This document shows, piece by piece, positions 41,334 to 46,482 of a stretch of 64,000 nucleotides of DNA (positions within the stretch are counted from its first letter, which is position 1; each line of letters opens with the position of its first letter). Location: assembly GCF_900107455.1 (NCBI RefSeq), contig NZ_FNQB01000001.1, forward strand, positions 186,001 through 250,000, in the 5' to 3' direction. Source of the DNA: Asanoa ishikariensis. Lineage in GTDB: Bacteria; Actinomycetota; Actinomycetes; Mycobacteriales; Micromonosporaceae. A model generated the notes under the pieces. That model was not told the DNA's origin, did no database searches, and was given only the letters and a program-made list of their open reading frames with translations. Position numbers and translations under genes: made by a program.

Positions 41334-41436
41334 CGAATTTCGCATAGGAAGGGCCCCTTGTTAACGCGGCCGACGTGGCTGGCGTTAACAAGGGGCCCTT
41401 CCTATGCGGAAAGCGATAACAAGGGGCCCTTGCTTA
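41314..41436. repeat. Compound palindromic repeat with four GGGGCCC cores, between convergent genes
   Basis: Four copies of the AAGGGGCCCTT or AAGGGCCCCTT core occur in 123 bp. The middle two form a perfect 26-bp inverted repeat (41341-41366 with 41383-41408; 16-nt loop) reading CGCATAGGAAGGGCCCC in the outer part and TTGTTAACG at the loop. The outer copies, at 41318-41328 and 41421-41431, flank it. The convergent genes' stop codons lie at its edges. It is likely a bidirectional terminator and possibly a dispersed repeat, known only in form here. Confidence 0.85.
41341..41408. terminator. 26-bp stem bidirectional terminator candidate
   Basis: The perfect 26-bp inverted repeat inside the compound repeat could fold as a very stable hairpin on either strand and is positioned to stop both convergent transcripts (GT4 and the CDP-alcohol phosphotransferase gene). 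Confidence 0.65.
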
Positions 41437-42150
41437 GCTTCGTAGGGCGGTGCGGCCGGTGAAGGCGATGCTCGCCAACAGGAAGCCGCCGTTGATGACC
41501 GTGAACGCGGCCAGCAGCCAGATGGTCCATTGTGGAACCAGGAGCAGCACCAGGCCGGCCACGAAGATGACCGCGCCGTAGTCGCGGACCAGCTTGACCA
41601 GCCGCACCGGCAGGGAGGTCGAGGTGACCATGCTGCCGCTGTTGGGGCCGGCCTGCATCACCGAGGTCACCAGGTTGACCATCCACGTGCCGGCGAACAG
41701 CGCGACCACCCACGAGGCGGTCGACGGGCGCTGGTCGACGGCCACCGCGGACAGCGCGGTGACGAGCGAGATCTGCACCGCGATGTCGCACAGCACGTCG
41801 ACCCGGGCGCCGGCCGGGCTGGTCTGCCCCGCCACCCGGGCGAGTTGGCCGTCCGCACAGTCCAGGGCGTAGGCGAGCTGCCAGCCGACCAGCGCGACCA
41901 ACCCGGCGATCCAGGTCGGCACGTCGGTCGACGCCAGCGCGACGACCGCCGCCGAGGTGGCCAGGCCGACCACCAGGTTGCCGGCGGTCAGGATCGTCGG
42001 TGGGACGCCCAGCCGGTAGGCGACCGCGGCGAACACCGCACCGACGCGCTGGCTCAGGCTCTCGCTGAACAGCCCGCCGCCCCGGTTGACGCGGTAGAAC
42101 TCGGCGGCGCCGGGCGGCGTGGGCTCAGCCGACAAGGTCGCGGAGCGCAT
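41434..42150 (-). CDS. CDP-alcohol phosphatidyltransferase-family enzyme
   Basis: 238 residues with about six membrane helices. The catalytic motif D-x2-D-G-x2-A-R-x8-G-x3-D-x3-D is intact as DCADGQLARVAGQTSPAGARVD and a final D (residues about 96-121); the four Asp bind two divalent metals. Displaces CMP from a CDP-linked alcohol or lipid onto an acceptor hydroxyl. The other two genes of the cassette overlap it (26 nt with the dehydrogenase), so its substrate may be the CDP-polyol they make rather than CDP-diacylglycerol. Its stop lies in the palindromic repeat. Confidence 0.88.
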   Translation of the reverse strand: MRSATLSAEPTPPGAAEFYRVNRGGGLFSESLSQRVGAVFAAVAYRLGVPPTILTAGNLVVGLATSAAVVALASTDVPTWIAGLVALVGWQLAYALDCADGQLARVAGQTSPAGARVDVLCDIAVQISLVTALSAVAVDQRPSTASWVVALFAGTWMVNLVTSVMQAGPNSGSMVTSTSLPVRLVKLVRDYGAVIFVAGLVLLLVPQWTIWLLAAFTVINGGFLLASIAFTGRTALRS

Positions 42151-43192
42151 CGGCGTACCCCTCCACCCGGGTTTCGATCTCGGCCGGCGACATCGCCAGG
42201 TGCTCGAGGATCGTGTAGCGGTCCGGCCGGGTCGTCGGCGCGTGCGCGATCGCCAGCCCGAACTGCTGATCGGTCAGGCCCAGGTCGCCCGGCGCGACCG
42301 GCAGCCCGTGACGACGCAGGCAGGCCCCGAGCTGGGCGAACCGCTCCTGGTCGCCGCGCAGGTACGTGCAGAACAGCGCACCCAGGCCGACCTGCTCGCC
42401 GTGCGAGCCGGTGCCGGGGAACAGGTGGTCGATCGCGTGCGAGATCTCGTGGCAGCCACCGCTGGCCGGCCGCGACGACTCCGCGACCGCCATGGAGATG
42501 CCGCCCATGATCAACGCCTCGGCCAGCGTGGTCAGGAACGCGTCGTCGCCGATCTTGCCCGGGTGGTTGACCAGCGCCTCGGCGCCGCTGCGGGACAGTG
42601 CGACGGCCAGGCCGTCGATCGACTCGCCGCGCTCGCGGTGGGCCAGCTCCCAGTCGGCGACGGCGCTCAGGTTGGACAGCGCGTCGCCGATGCCGGCCTG
42701 GGTCTGCCGGTCGGGCCCGTTCTCGACGAAGTCGAGGTCGACCACGATCGCGAGCGGGATCTGGACGCCGTAGGAGCCGCGGCGACCGTCGAGGTCGAGC
42801 GAGGCGACCGGCGAGCAGATGCCGTCGTTGGCCAGGCTGGTGGCCACCGTGACCATCGGGATGCCCAGTCGGGTCGCGGCGTACTTGGTGGTGTCGATGG
42901 TCTTGCCGCCGCCGATGCCGACCACGGCGTCGTAGTTGCGCTGGCGCAGCCCCTGGCTCAGGTCCATGGCCGAGTCGACCGTGCCGCCACAGATGTGGAA
43001 CATGTCCGCGTTGCCCAGCGACGGGCGCACGAGCTCGGCGATCCGCTCGCCCTGGCCGGGACCGACCACGACCGCGACGTCGCCGCCGCCGGAGATCCGC
43101 CGGTCGTGCAGCAGGGTGCCGAGCTCGGCGAGGGCGCCGCGGCGCACCTCGATGGCCAGCGGCGTGGTGACGGTGCGGGCTAGTAGTGGCAT
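42125..43192 (-). CDS. Glycerol-1-phosphate-dehydrogenase-like (AraM/EgsA) iron-containing dehydrogenase
   Basis: 355 residues. The Rossmann-like half has GIGGGKTIDTTKYAA (about 91-105) for the nucleotide, and the metal half has the SGGCHEISHAIDHL and GTGSHGEQVGLGAL segments that in G1PDH/EgsA carry His and Asp zinc ligands. The bacterial AraM and archaeal EgsA branch converts dihydroxyacetone phosphate to sn-glycerol 1-phosphate; other polyol-phosphate dehydrogenases of the same fold exist. Overlaps the cytidylyltransferase gene by 13 nt and the transferase gene by 26 nt, so all three are co-translated. Confidence 0.8.
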   Translation of the reverse strand: MPLLARTVTTPLAIEVRRGALAELGTLLHDRRISGGGDVAVVVGPGQGERIAELVRPSLGNADMFHICGGTVDSAMDLSQGLRQRNYDAVVGIGGGKTIDTTKYAATRLGIPMVTVATSLANDGICSPVASLDLDGRRGSYGVQIPLAIVVDLDFVENGPDRQTQAGIGDALSNLSAVADWELAHRERGESIDGLAVALSRSGAEALVNHPGKIGDDAFLTTLAEALIMGGISMAVAESSRPASGGCHEISHAIDHLFPGTGSHGEQVGLGALFCTYLRGDQERFAQLGACLRRHGLPVAPGDLGLTDQQFGLAIAHAPTTRPDRYTILEHLAMSPAEIETRVEGYADALRDLVG

Positions 43193-43911
43193 GCGATCTC
43201 CCGCGCCCGGGCCAGGTCGGCGTGGTTGTCGACCTCGACCCAGGGGATGTCGCCGATGGTCGCCGCCCGGACCTGCCCGCCGCGCTGCGCGTACTCCTGG
43301 TAGCCGTCCTCGTAGTAGAGGTTCGGGTCCCGTTTCCAGGTCGCTTCCAGCGCCTCCGCGAGGCCGGCGGCGGCCGACGCCTCGATCAGCGTCGCGCCGA
43401 TGTACTCGCCGAACGCCTCGGCCGGGTCCATCAGCTTGGTGATCCGGGTGAGCTGGCCGTCGGCGTCGAAGGTGGTCTTCATCTCCTCGTCGGCGAGCTT
43501 CTTCACGTTGTCGACGGCGAGCAGCACGCCGGGACCGCGGTTGTCGAGCAGCGTCTGCTCGACCGAGACCGGGTGCACGGTGTCGCCGTTGACGAGCAGC
43601 GCCCCGCCCGCGAACTGGTCACGGGCCAGCCACAAGGAGTAGGCGTTGTTCCACTCCTCGGCCTTGTCGTTGTGCACCAGGTTCAGCGTGACGCCGTACC
43701 GTGACTCCAGGTCCGGCCGGCGCTTCTCGACTGTCTCGGCCGCGTAGCCGACCACGACGGCGATGTCGGTGAGCCCGACGGCGGCGAGGTTGCGCAGCGC
43801 GATGTCGAGGATGGTGGTCTCGCCGTCGACCGGCACGAGGGCCTTGGGCAGCGTGTCGGTATAGGGGCGCAGACGCCGGCCAGCGCCGGCTGCGAGCACG
43901 AGACCGATCAT
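43180..43911 (-). CDS. Sugar/alcohol-phosphate nucleotidyltransferase (LicC/IPCT-like)
   Basis: 243 residues from the ATG at 43911 with GGAGG about 10 nt upstream; a start at 43932 is possible. The nucleotidyltransferase core GLVLAAGAGRRLRPYTDTLPKALVPV (G-L-x-A-G-x-G-x-R-L and PKALVPV) opens the protein, and the N-D-K-A-E-E-W-N-N-A-Y-S-L segment resembles the CTP-specific phosphocholine and inositol-1-phosphate cytidylyltransferases. Likely makes a CDP-alcohol from an alcohol phosphate and CTP. Promoter-proximal gene of the cassette. Confidence 0.85.
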   Translation of the reverse strand: MIGLVLAAGAGRRLRPYTDTLPKALVPVDGETTILDIALRNLAAVGLTDIAVVVGYAAETVEKRRPDLESRYGVTLNLVHNDKAEEWNNAYSLWLARDQFAGGALLVNGDTVHPVSVEQTLLDNRGPGVLLAVDNVKKLADEEMKTTFDADGQLTRITKLMDPAEAFGEYIGATLIEASAAAGLAEALEATWKRDPNLYYEDGYQEYAQRGGQVRAATIGDIPWVEVDNHADLARAREIACHY

Positions 43912-43989
43912 CCTGGAGCTTCCTCCACACATGCAGCAGATGTACGGGAAGAAAACTCTTCCCGACAGGGAGGATAGCGGTGCCGGCGG

Positions 43990-44471: not shown

Positions 44472-44987
44472 CTAGGTCGCGGGGGGTTCGTCGCGCTGGG
44501 TGCGCGGCGTGCCACGGCGTGCCGGGTCGGGGGGTGTCACCTGCTCCAGATGGGCGAGCACCTTGCCGGCGATGGTGGCCAACGCGGCCAGGTCGGTCGG
44601 GTCGAGCAGGTCGATGAAATGCCTCCGGACGGACGCGACGTGCAGCTTGGCGGCCGCCTGGATCGTGGCCCAGCCCTCGTCGGTGAGTACCACGGTGGCG
44701 CTGCGCCCGTCACTCGCGTAGTCGTCGCGGGTGACCAGGCCGCGTTGGTCCATCCGGCTCACGTGGTGCGAGAGCCGGCTGACCGACCATTTGATCTCGG
44801 CGGCGAGCTCACCGAGCCGCATCCGATGGTCGGGTGCGTCGGAGACGGTCGAGAGCACGTCGTAGTCGGCGTCCGAGAGCCCCGAGTCGGCGGCCAGGTC
44901 GCGGGTGATCTGGAGGTCGAGCAGCGTGCGCAGGCGCCGGTAGCCGAGCCACGCCCGCATCTCGTCGTCGGTCAGCCAGCGGGTCAT
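44472..44987 (-). CDS. MarR-family transcriptional regulator
   Basis: 171 residues. A winged helix-turn-helix (about 55-118) with LGELAAEIKWSVSRLSHHVSRMDQRGLVTR (recognition helix SVSRLSHHVSRM) and the D-G-R-S-A-T wing is flanked by dimerisation helices. Divergent from a YczE-type membrane-protein gene across the double palindrome at 45003-45060, its probable operator, so it likely represses both itself and that operon, with release by a ligand. ATG with TACGCT 6 nt upstream and no Shine-Dalgarno, hence a leaderless mRNA. Confidence 0.94.
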   Translation of the reverse strand: MTRWLTDDEMRAWLGYRRLRTLLDLQITRDLAADSGLSDADYDVLSTVSDAPDHRMRLGELAAEIKWSVSRLSHHVSRMDQRGLVTRDDYASDGRSATVVLTDEGWATIQAAAKLHVASVRRHFIDLLDPTDLAALATIAGKVLAHLEQVTPPDPARRGTPRTQRDEPPAT

Positions 44988-44993
44988 GTGTTC

Positions 44994-44999
44994 AGCGTA
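44994..44999 (-). promoter_or_regulatory. marR -10 box
   Basis: TACGCT on the minus strand, 6 nt before the marR ATG. The matching consensus -35 TTGACA is 45021-45016 on the minus strand, 16 bp away, inside the left operator palindrome. Confidence 0.65.
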
Positions 45000-45002
45000 G
45001 AC

Positions 45003-45060
45003 AGTCTGCTTGACATGTCAAACAAGGCGCGCCTACTCTGTTTGACATGTCAAGCAGACT
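45003..45060. promoter_or_regulatory. Double MarR operator: 22-bp perfect inverted repeat containing two identical 12-bp palindromes
   Basis: Arms 45003-45024 and 45039-45060 are exact reverse complements (22 bp), 14 bp apart. Each arm contains the same palindrome TTGACATGTCAA (O1 at 45010-45021, O2 at 45042-45053; centres 32 bp, about three helical turns, apart). O1 supplies consensus TTGACA -35 hexamers for both divergent promoters; O2 contains the ATG of the YczE-like gene at 45047. Binding by the adjacent MarR protein is inferred from symmetry and position. Confidence 0.85.
45010..45039 (+). promoter_or_regulatory. Promoter of the YczE-like gene: consensus -35 TTGACA, -10 TACTCT
   Basis: TTGACA at 45010-45015 and TACTCT at 45034-45039 are 18 bp apart; the ATG follows 7 nt after the -10, so transcription should begin at or next to the start codon (leaderless). 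Confidence 0.75.
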
Positions 45061-45646
45061 GCTCCGGCTCTTCGCCGGCCTGGTGCTCTTCGGGGTCAGC
45101 CTCGGCCTGATGGTGCGGGCTGACCTTGGCCTCGGTCCGTGGGACGTCTTCCACCAGGGCGTCGCCGACCGGATCGGCCTGTCCATCGGCCTGGTCGTCA
45201 ACCTCACCGCCGTCGTCGTGCTGCTGCTGTGGATCCCGCTGCGGCAGCGGCCCGGCATCGGCACGGTCGCCAACGTCGTCGTGGTCGGGCTGGTCACCGA
45301 CGGCACGCTGTGGCTGCTGCCCGACCTCGACGCCCTCGCGCCGCGGATCGCGCTGCTGGTCGCCGGCATCCTCGCCAACGCGGTCGCGACCGGCCTCTAC
45401 GTCGGCGCCGGTCTCGGCCCCGGCCCGCGCGACGGGCTGATGACCGGCCTGGCCGCCCGCGGCCACTCGATCCGGCTGGTCCGCACCGGCATCGAGCTCG
45501 CCGTGCTGGCGATCGGCTTCCTGCTGGGCGGCTCGGTCGGGTTCGGCACCATCGCGTACGCCCTGGCCATCGGTCCGCTCGTCGGGGTCTTCCTGCCGAG
45601 GCTGACCATCGCGCCGCGCACCGCGGCGGAAGGAGAACCCGCATGA
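45047..45646 (+). CDS. YczE/YitT-family membrane protein
   Basis: 199 residues with about five membrane helices (about 5-23, 43-63, 70-90, 99-120, 145-165) and the R-A-D-L-G-L-G-P-W-D-V loop after helix 1 that marks the YczE/YyaS/YitT family. Role unclear; relatives are implicated in resistance or lipopeptide production and possibly transport. The ATG lies inside operator O2. The stop overlaps the LLM oxidoreductase start as ATGA, so the two form an operon predicted to be MarR-controlled. Confidence 0.85.
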   Translation: MSSRLLRLFAGLVLFGVSLGLMVRADLGLGPWDVFHQGVADRIGLSIGLVVNLTAVVVLLLWIPLRQRPGIGTVANVVVVGLVTDGTLWLLPDLDALAPRIALLVAGILANAVATGLYVGAGLGPGPRDGLMTGLAARGHSIRLVRTGIELAVLAIGFLLGGSVGFGTIAYALAIGPLVGVFLPRLTIAPRTAAEGEPA

Positions 45647-46482
45647 TCCACTTTGGGCTGGACGTCCCGGCCACCACTGTCCCCGGCGAGCCTTCGGTCG
45701 ACCCGGTTTCGGCTGCTTGCGCTGCCGAGGCCGCCGGGTTCGACTTCGTCTCGGCGTCCGATCACCCGTGCGGCACGGATCCCAGCTACGAGAACTGGAC
45801 GATGCTGACCTGGATGCTCGCCAGCACCTCCCGGCTGCGGGTGCTGCCCCGGGTGCTGGGCATGCCCTACCGCAACCCGGCGATGGTGGCCAAGATGGCC
45901 GAGACGCTTGACCGGCTCTCCGGGGGCCGGCTGCTGCTCGGCCTGGGCGGCGGCTACTCCGACGACGAGTTCCGCGCGTTCGGGATCGGCGTGCCGTCGC
46001 CCCGGGACAAGGTCGACGGCCTCGACGAGGCGATCCAGGTGATCCGCGGGCTGTGGACGCAGCCGTCCTTCACGTTCGCCGGACGGATACATCGGACCGA
46101 CGCGGCGACCATCGCTCCCCGGCCGGCCTCGCCGATCCCGATCTGGGTCGGCACCTTCGGCCCCCGCGCGCTGGCGGTCACCGGCCGGCTGGCCGACGGG
46201 TGGATCCCGTCGCTCGGCCACGCGCCGCCGGAGACCATCCCGGCGCTGCGCGACCGGATCGCCCGCGCCGCAGACGGCGCCGGACGCTCCATCGAGGAGA
46301 TCACCTGCGGCTATCACCTGGACGTGCCAACCGGTGGTGCGGATGAGGTGGTCGAGACACTCCTGGGTTACGTGCGGCTGGGTTTCACCGCATTCAACTT
46401 CCGTGTCGACGGTGCCGACCGGGACGAGCGGGTCGACTGGCTCGGGACCGAAATCCTCCCGGTCGTACGACAGGCTGGCTGA
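45643..46482 (+). CDS. LLM-class F420-dependent oxidoreductase
   Basis: 279 residues from the ATG at 45643, with GGAGAA 7 nt upstream and a 4-nt ATGA overlap with the membrane gene; the longer open frame from 45139 is a shadow. A luciferase-like TIM barrel with SDHP near residue 45, PYRNPAMVAKMAETLDRLSGGRLLLGLG core (N-P-A-x-x-A-K-x-x-x-T-L-D-x-L-S-x-G-R) typical of F420- or FMN-dependent LLM enzymes, and GTFGPRALAVTGRLADGW. Probably uses F420 to reduce a small organic compound. Its regulation by MarR and coupling to a membrane protein suggests detoxification. Confidence 0.9.
   Translation: MIHFGLDVPATTVPGEPSVDPVSAACAAEAAGFDFVSASDHPCGTDPSYENWTMLTWMLASTSRLRVLPRVLGMPYRNPAMVAKMAETLDRLSGGRLLLGLGGGYSDDEFRAFGIGVPSPRDKVDGLDEAIQVIRGLWTQPSFTFAGRIHRTDAATIAPRPASPIPIWVGTFGPRALAVTGRLADGWIPSLGHAPPETIPALRDRIARAADGAGRSIEEITCGYHLDVPTGGADEVVETLLGYVRLGFTAFNFRVDGADRDERVDWLGTEILPVVRQAG

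Follow-up and report, generated by a model that had tools for sequence, protein, structure and literature searches.

A twin palindrome between divergent marR and yczE-like genes of Asanoa ishikariensis as the very probable operator region of an AbsC/SCO3205-like regulator

Between a marR gene and a divergently oriented yczE-like gene in a 64,000-nucleotide stretch of the Asanoa ishikariensis genome (the window; contig NZ_FNQB01000001.1, positions 186,001 to 250,000) lies a perfect inverted repeat, each arm of which contains the palindrome TTGACATGTCAA. The twin palindrome element is confirmed as a real feature of this DNA, and it is very likely the operator region of the adjacent AbsC/SCO3205-like MarR repressor, from which both marR and the yczE operon would be silenced. 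On the evidence of the DNA and of the regulator's residues, the protein very probably switches off its own gene together with its neighbour. A divergent, autoregulated MarR with two operators is a kind of system that is known already, and the present case is an ordinary but well supported one; with its operator closely overlapping a start codon predicted to be leaderless, it is a readable example of this known type of switch.

The positions of the features are given in Table 1. By direct reading, and in a repeat search, the two palindromes, O1 and O2, are both exactly TTGACATGTCAA with their centres 32 bp apart, as the preliminary description had it in stating that each arm holds the same 12-bp palindrome. 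The repeat itself had been taken as a 58-bp element with 22-bp arms (45003-45060); it is indeed perfect, but extends one base further at either end. The coordinates and spacers of the two promoters to which O1 was said to supply a TTGACA −35 box, 18 nt in one direction and 16 nt in the other, are right on reading. That the palindromes cover both −35 boxes and a start codon holds in that O1 lies over both −35 boxes, while O2 lies only over the start of yczE. Similarly, O2 is over the start point of the yczE promoter alone; with respect to the marR promoter it is upstream of the −35 box.

Table 1. Positions of the features of the marR-yczE intergenic region, its flanking genes and the related paralog sites (window coordinates unless another sequence is named).
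Feature	Position	Strand	Description	Support
Perfect inverted repeat	45002..45061	.	Arms 45002-45024 and 45039-45061, 23 nt each; 14 nt between	Repeat search
O1, palindrome TTGACATGTCAA	45010..45021	.	Contains the −35 box of both predicted promoters	
O2, palindrome TTGACATGTCAA	45042..45053	.	Spans the yczE ATG and the predicted start of transcription	
yczE promoter −35 box TTGACA, predicted	45010..45015	+	Within O1	
yczE promoter −10 box TACTCT (TAnnnT), predicted	45034..45039	+	18-nt spacer; ATG 45047 is 7 nt on	
marR promoter −35 box TTGACA, predicted	45016..45021	-	Within O1, opposite strand	
marR promoter −10 box TACGCT, predicted	44994..44999	-	16-nt spacer; ATG 44987 is 6 nt on	
marR gene	44472..44987	-	AbsC/SCO3205-like regulator, 171 aa, no cysteine	Pfam MarR_2, 36.5 bits
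yczE-like membrane protein gene	45047..45646	+	ATG inside O2	NF052291, 248.1 bits (cut-off 205)
LLM-class F420-dependent oxidoreductase gene	45643..46482	+		TIGR03619, 169.8 bits (cut-off 166.9); PF00296
Paralog site pair TTGACATGTCAC/GTGACATGTCAA	L006 2813-2854 = G000:C6:529312-529353		Two of the three one-mismatch sites of the genome	

Neither the marR frame (ATG 44987) nor the yczE frame (ATG 45047) contains an in-frame ATG, GTG or TTG back to the upstream stop, and both frames begin at these codons. The yczE-like protein has no Pfam match. Its stop codon overlaps the ATG of the following LLM oxidoreductase gene (ATGA), so that the two genes probably belong to one operon. Elsewhere in the window, on the minus strand at 41434-43932, genes for a nucleotidyltransferase, an iron-containing alcohol dehydrogenase (Fe-ADH_2 type) and a CDP-alcohol phosphatidyltransferase adjoin, and look like a small lipid or polyol-phosphate pathway.

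Both palindromes are exact, and flanked by marR and yczE, in all five other Asanoa genomes compared. Poor conservation in close relatives, which had been named at the outset as the outcome that would speak against an operator, is therefore not what is seen. When the six Asanoa genomes are aligned all 12 columns of O1 and all 12 of O2 are invariant, compared with 9 of 20 in the spacer, 10 of 22 on the marR side (44988-45009) and 50 of 99 third codon positions of yczE. The second codon of yczE, which is inside O2, is TCA (serine) in 6/6 genomes. This codon is rare, accounting for only 3 of the 125 serine codons across 11 genes of the window, the yczE one included, and its retention points to selection acting on the operator rather than on the protein.

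The exact 12-mer is found only twice in the whole 9,085,759-base genome, both times at the element, and a reversed control pattern has no match in the same 9,085,759 bases. Three further TTGACATGTCAA-like sites carry one mismatch. One of these, at C4:392208, is a single site that overlaps the stop of a short WhiB-like open frame; no MarR was found within the 6-kb stretch around it. With up to two mismatches allowed O1 and O2 are the only matches in the window, where shuffling gave a mean of 0.40, and two or more matches occurred in 6 of 100 shuffles, so this loose window test is weak alone. Those six shuffles, equal to the real sequence in this respect, are the argument for regarding the twin palindrome as a product of chance or base composition. 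With the element accounting for every exact copy (two) in 9.09 Mb, and with its conservation in 5/5 other Asanoa genomes, a degree of conservation that already refutes an artefact, the probability of this explanation is practically nil.

The 23-bp arms are perfectly complementary, as they would also be if the repeat acted as an RNA hairpin or a cruciform and not as a protein operator. Were yczE transcription to start at the predicted 45046-45047, however, the left arm would be outside the transcript, and the first 100 nt of the predicted yczE RNA fold barely better than shuffled sequences (z −1.21; 22 of 200 as good); on these two grounds a hairpin or attenuation mechanism was rejected. In addition, the arms outside the palindromes are incompletely conserved in Asanoa and no terminator-like site was found in 44900-45150. 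A structural role for the repeat in place of an operator is accordingly highly improbable, and the binding of a regulator to the palindromes is the reading pursued below.

The protein encoded by the adjacent gene belongs to the MarR family, scoring 36.5 bits against PF12802 (MarR_2; cut-off 27) and 24.2 bits, just below the cut-off of 24.6, against PF01047. Its closest solved structures are AbsC (3zmd; E 5.2e-30, residues 2-147) and SCO3205 (3zpl; E 5.3e-24, residues 3-141); the next best match has an E-value of 2.4e-11, and 2fbk (HucR) is a more distant match at 3.2e-11. Ser73 and His77, which contact the bases in SCO3205, correspond to S70 and H74 of the window MarR, and Arg74, Ser76, Arg81 and Arg98 to R71, S73, R78 and R95; Arg60, Arg90, Arg32 and Asp96 are also conserved. 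In the same residue comparison Arg72, Tyr44, Thr62, Lys97 and Gln100 of SCO3205 are not conserved, Arg72, the recognition-helix arginine that is oriented there by the C-terminal tail, being V69 in the window MarR. W13 and H116 match the Trp/His pair of the salicylate pocket, Trp18/His120 in AbsC, a pair that is also shared with SCO3205. There is no redox-active cysteine among the 171 residues, which sets the protein apart from the cysteine-sensing MarRs of the OhrR/MosR type.

SCO3205 of Streptomyces coelicolor (PDB 3ZPL), a member of the same MarR subgroup, provides the nearest parallel. As described in PMC3737563, it binds two operators, O3204 and O3205, in its own divergent intergenic region with KD values of 1.3 and 2.4 nM and 24-bp footprints, the operator consensus is TTnAAnnnTCAA and the crystal structure was obtained with DNA. 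The window element likewise has a pair of putative operators, with TT(G)A/TCAA half-sites, in a divergent intergenic region. Its sites, on the other hand, are perfect and identical whereas those of SCO3205 are imperfect palindromes, and at one fixed position of the published consensus O1 and O2 each have C in place of A. The sections of that paper considered do not describe an operator fused with −35 boxes and a start codon, and the term 'start codon' is absent from its text (PMC3737563). For absC itself the paper predicts only one upstream site. The best match among solved structures, AbsC (SCO5405 of S. coelicolor, PDB 3ZMD), differs in being linked to zinc-dependent antibiotic production. 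In the HucR-uricase system of Deinococcus radiodurans the regulator is also divergent from its target with the operator in the shared intergenic region, but uses a single site rather than two; HucR and other divergent ligand-responsive MarR pairs are described as being released on ligand binding (PMC5487221). The 12-mer TTGACATGTCAA is in no paper of the literature searched. Among the matches listed for other queries, TTGACATG with MarR returned no such operator and yczE with MarR no such pair, judged by titles and the starts of abstracts, and the 10-mer TTGACATGTC nothing on MarR, judged by title.

The link to a MarR gene extends well beyond Asanoa. Among the 354 genomes of the family, 26 carry the exact twin site, once in each, and in all 26 a diverging MarR gene lies beside it; taken together with the SCO3205 DNA-contact residues, this bears out the proposal of a marR-linked operator. 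In samples that partly overlap the family set the exact twin site was found in 7 of 397 genomes of the order and 3 of 394 of the class, adding two loci, L195 and L196, both with a diverging MarR. The reversed control pattern did not occur among the matches listed in the family, order and class searches (354, 397 and 394 genomes, partly the same). A looser-pattern scan of named genome contigs gave at least 119 loci, and among those listed a diverging MarR gene is present within 250 bp at 68 and absent at 51. Two exact palindromes are present in 24 of the loci listed, 19 with a MarR and five (L050, L052, L096, L116 and L121) with none found; the sequence of L050, from Asanoa, ends 122 nt beyond the site. 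At L100, L113, L116 and L120 (three Bacteroidota, one unassigned) the twin palindrome is repeated two to three times in a row, 84-126 bp apart, with no MarR found nearby, and this is probably a different, repeated element. Removal of those sharing the same element and 60-nt flanks reduced 96 regulator-linked loci to 83 unique ones.

Among the matches listed, these 83 loci divide according to their regulators. The motif S70-R71-L72-S73-H74 and the W13/H116 pair are kept in all 37 MarRs of three groups, namely the six Asanoa, seven others with the leaderless layout described below and a clade of 24 taken from a tree of the MarRs, in which 23 have an open frame in the LLM cluster and L149 does not. 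The three groups are nearly all actinobacterial, with one member from Thermomicrobiota. In the other 46 MarRs among the matches listed, S70 is found in 15, H74 in 11, W13 in 11 and H116 in 4; despite the changed residues they adjoin similar sites of the looser pattern and, by the tree, they are largely from Bacteroidota and Bacillota. The leaderless-layout loci fall in two starred clades plus L157, the placement of which is unsure, and may have a single origin. L133 is a short fragment (13% of columns) and its placement in the tree is meaningless; for L130-L168 the organism names are those given in this tree.

In the 68 regulator-linked named loci among the matches listed the centres of the two sites are 26-38 bp apart, most often 30 bp (23 loci), followed by 26 (10), 28 (8), 31 (7) and 32 (6). 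The suggestion that the sites are separated by three helical turns, with both dimers on the same face, holds for the Asanoa-type clade (30-32 bp) but not for the motif in general, and the range rules out a fixed three-turn spacing as a general rule. In the 12 leaderless loci with a −10 box a distance of 30 bp goes with a 16-nt −35/−10 spacer (two loci) and one of 31-32 bp with an 18-nt spacer (ten loci). The distance thus tracks the spacer, which makes promoter geometry a possible cause, and it may be this geometry that sets the O1-O2 distance.

A variable distance also means that a fixed-face contact between dimers is not general and, since O1 alone covers both −35 boxes, it could be argued that only O1 matters for repression, O2 being a weaker or accessory site kept for reasons such as cooperative binding or the context of the start codon. 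However, O2 is conserved just as strictly as O1 within Asanoa, twin sites are found with targets that are not related to one another, and both sites of SCO3205 bind with nanomolar KD (PMC3737563). An operator with O1 as its only working site seems unlikely, and repression from both palindromes remains the preferred reading.

Start-site mapping in Actinoplanes, which belongs to the same family, placed TAnnnT ahead of 98% of the sites that were examined and gave nTGACn as the −35 motif; leaderless starts made up 1179 of the 4228 mapped (PMC7682106). Both marR and yczE have a TAnnnT box 6-7 nt before the start codon, and the transcripts of both are predicted to be leaderless. A generic E. coli-type sigma-70 scan of 44900-45150 detected no promoter, since the −10 boxes have just three positions in common with TATAAT; its consensus is that of E. 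coli, while the boxes fit the actinobacterial TAnnnT.

A similar layout, in which the reading frame of the target includes the ATG in O2 and the family match starts shortly after it, is seen at 13 loci: six Asanoa and one Rugosimonospora with yczE, two Dactylosporangium with an LLM oxidoreductase and four with an FMN reductase-GNAT fusion (Aeromicrobium, Kribbella, Saccharothrix and one further relative). As the loci were grouped by this ATG it is itself no evidence, whereas the position of the −10 box is. TAnnnT is found 6-7 nt before the O2 ATG in 12 of the 13 loci, across three target families, as against a mean of 0.19 and a maximum of 3 in 5000 trials in which the spacers were shuffled; the one exception is L087, where the box is absent. 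With a single Asanoa retained the box is present in 7 of 8 loci (shuffle mean 0.12). The clade of 24 has it at the same place in 9 (shuffle mean 0.9), making 21/37 when pooled with the 13 (shuffle mean 1.1), while in the other 46 regulator-linked loci among the matches listed it is found in only one, fewer than the shuffle mean of 5.8. The difference between 1/46 outside and 21/37 within indicates that the layout belongs to the actinobacterial-type groups. A general promoter layout for all twin sites was rejected, the box being present 6-7 nt ahead of the centre of O2 in only 22 of the 83 unique loci listed, 21 of them within these three groups.

The 13 do not include nine loci of the clade of 24 where the O2 ATG likewise shares its frame with an open frame from the LLM cluster. 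Their O2 ATG was judged not to be the start because a homologous start lies further on in several: at L088, L140, L176, L188 and L193 the start that is homologous to other members is 10-22 codons beyond it, and at L102, L114, L137 and L191 the frame from the O2 ATG does not read as an LLM start. In the same clade L081, L124 and L188-L194 have TAnnnT 6-7 nt before an O2 ATG that is mostly not an evident LLM start. On the marR side a TAnnnT box is positioned 15-16 nt from O1 in 9/9 of the yczE and LLM loci and in 0/4 of the FMN reductase loci, so the use of one palindrome for both −35 boxes is a feature of the yczE/LLM subgroup.

The genes opposite the regulators vary. LLM oxidoreductases form one cluster of 27 open frames, drawn from 23 loci, with the two Dactylosporangium loci in another, and the other divergent targets, from ten representatives scanned, include the FMN reductase-GNAT fusion and NmrA-like, FAD-binding monooxygenase-like, alpha/beta hydrolase-like and aldo/keto reductase proteins. 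Many other loci, chiefly from Bacteroidota, have no clustered target. The targets scanned are mostly redox enzymes, the actinobacterial ones mostly using flavin, F420 or NAD(P)H. A regulator responding to a small compound, aromatic or reactive, would be in keeping with this, the ligand being guessed from the conserved pocket.

Of 12 MarR-type genes examined in the A. ishikariensis genome, 5 are preceded by some form of twin palindrome, the second copy at L010 being poor. Three paralogs with the SRLSH motif (L009, L010 and L011) carry TTGA-type sites. Two paralogs without it have other sites, TTCAAGCTTGAA twice, 33 bp apart, at L013 (SRLSN) and the GCTTCGA-type pair GCTTCGAAGTCGAAGC/GCTTCGACTTCGAAGC, 46 bp apart, at L015 (SGLTY), and in both the recognition-helix residues are changed. 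A code in which the SRLSH recognition motif goes with TTGA half-sites is suggested, though with so few paralogs the pairing is a lead and not proof.

The closest MarR paralog (55% identical, C6:529384) has a second pair of sites upstream, TTGACATGTCAC and GTGACATGTCAA, 30 bp apart, and a TAGTCT box that ends 7 nt before a likely leaderless ATG. Given these near-identical sites and the same SRLSH motif, O1 and O2 might be shared with this paralog or even be used mainly by it. Each of the paralog's sites is one base off O1/O2, however, and the window MarR adjoins its own sites just as the MarRs beside twin sites do in 26/26 loci of the family. Cross-regulation of this kind is quite improbable, and the adjacent MarR is retained as the protein expected to act at the element.

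It would seem likely, then, that one MarR dimer binds to each copy of TTGACATGTCAA. A dimer on O1 would cover the −35 boxes of both promoters and, as these are the two strands of one palindrome, could silence marR along with yczE. With O2 also occupied, the start point and start codon of the yczE operon would be covered and repression there strengthened; the ATG would be inside O2 because transcription of a leaderless gene, as yczE is predicted to be, begins at the ATG. The preliminary description held that a dimer at O2 would block initiation itself, which would be correct for transcription but not for ribosomes, the dimer being bound to DNA. A small, probably aromatic-acid-like ligand filling the Trp13/His116 pocket would cause the dimers to leave, after which polymerase could enter in either direction, though not in both together, since the two −35 boxes occupy a single 12-bp stretch.

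More broadly, there is about an even chance that TTGACATGTCAA is a compact actinobacterial module in which one copy is both repressor site and −35 box and the second provides the transcription start, the start codon and the first codons, the operator constraining the protein, and that MarRs of at least two clades use this layout to control at least three target families. The −35 role on both strands would be limited to the yczE and LLM loci. Dictation of the N-terminus by the operator would account for YczE, the LLM oxidoreductase and the FMN reductase-GNAT protein all beginning Met-Ser-(Ser/Asn/Lys/Thr), with the serine encoded by TCA. If true, the sequence of an operator constrains that of a protein and, in leaderless genes, an operator can also fix the protein's first codons. 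The element provides a readable operator for a type of regulator with few characterised members, and could serve as a clean two-way reporter for asking if polymerases at a shared −35 box are mutually exclusive.
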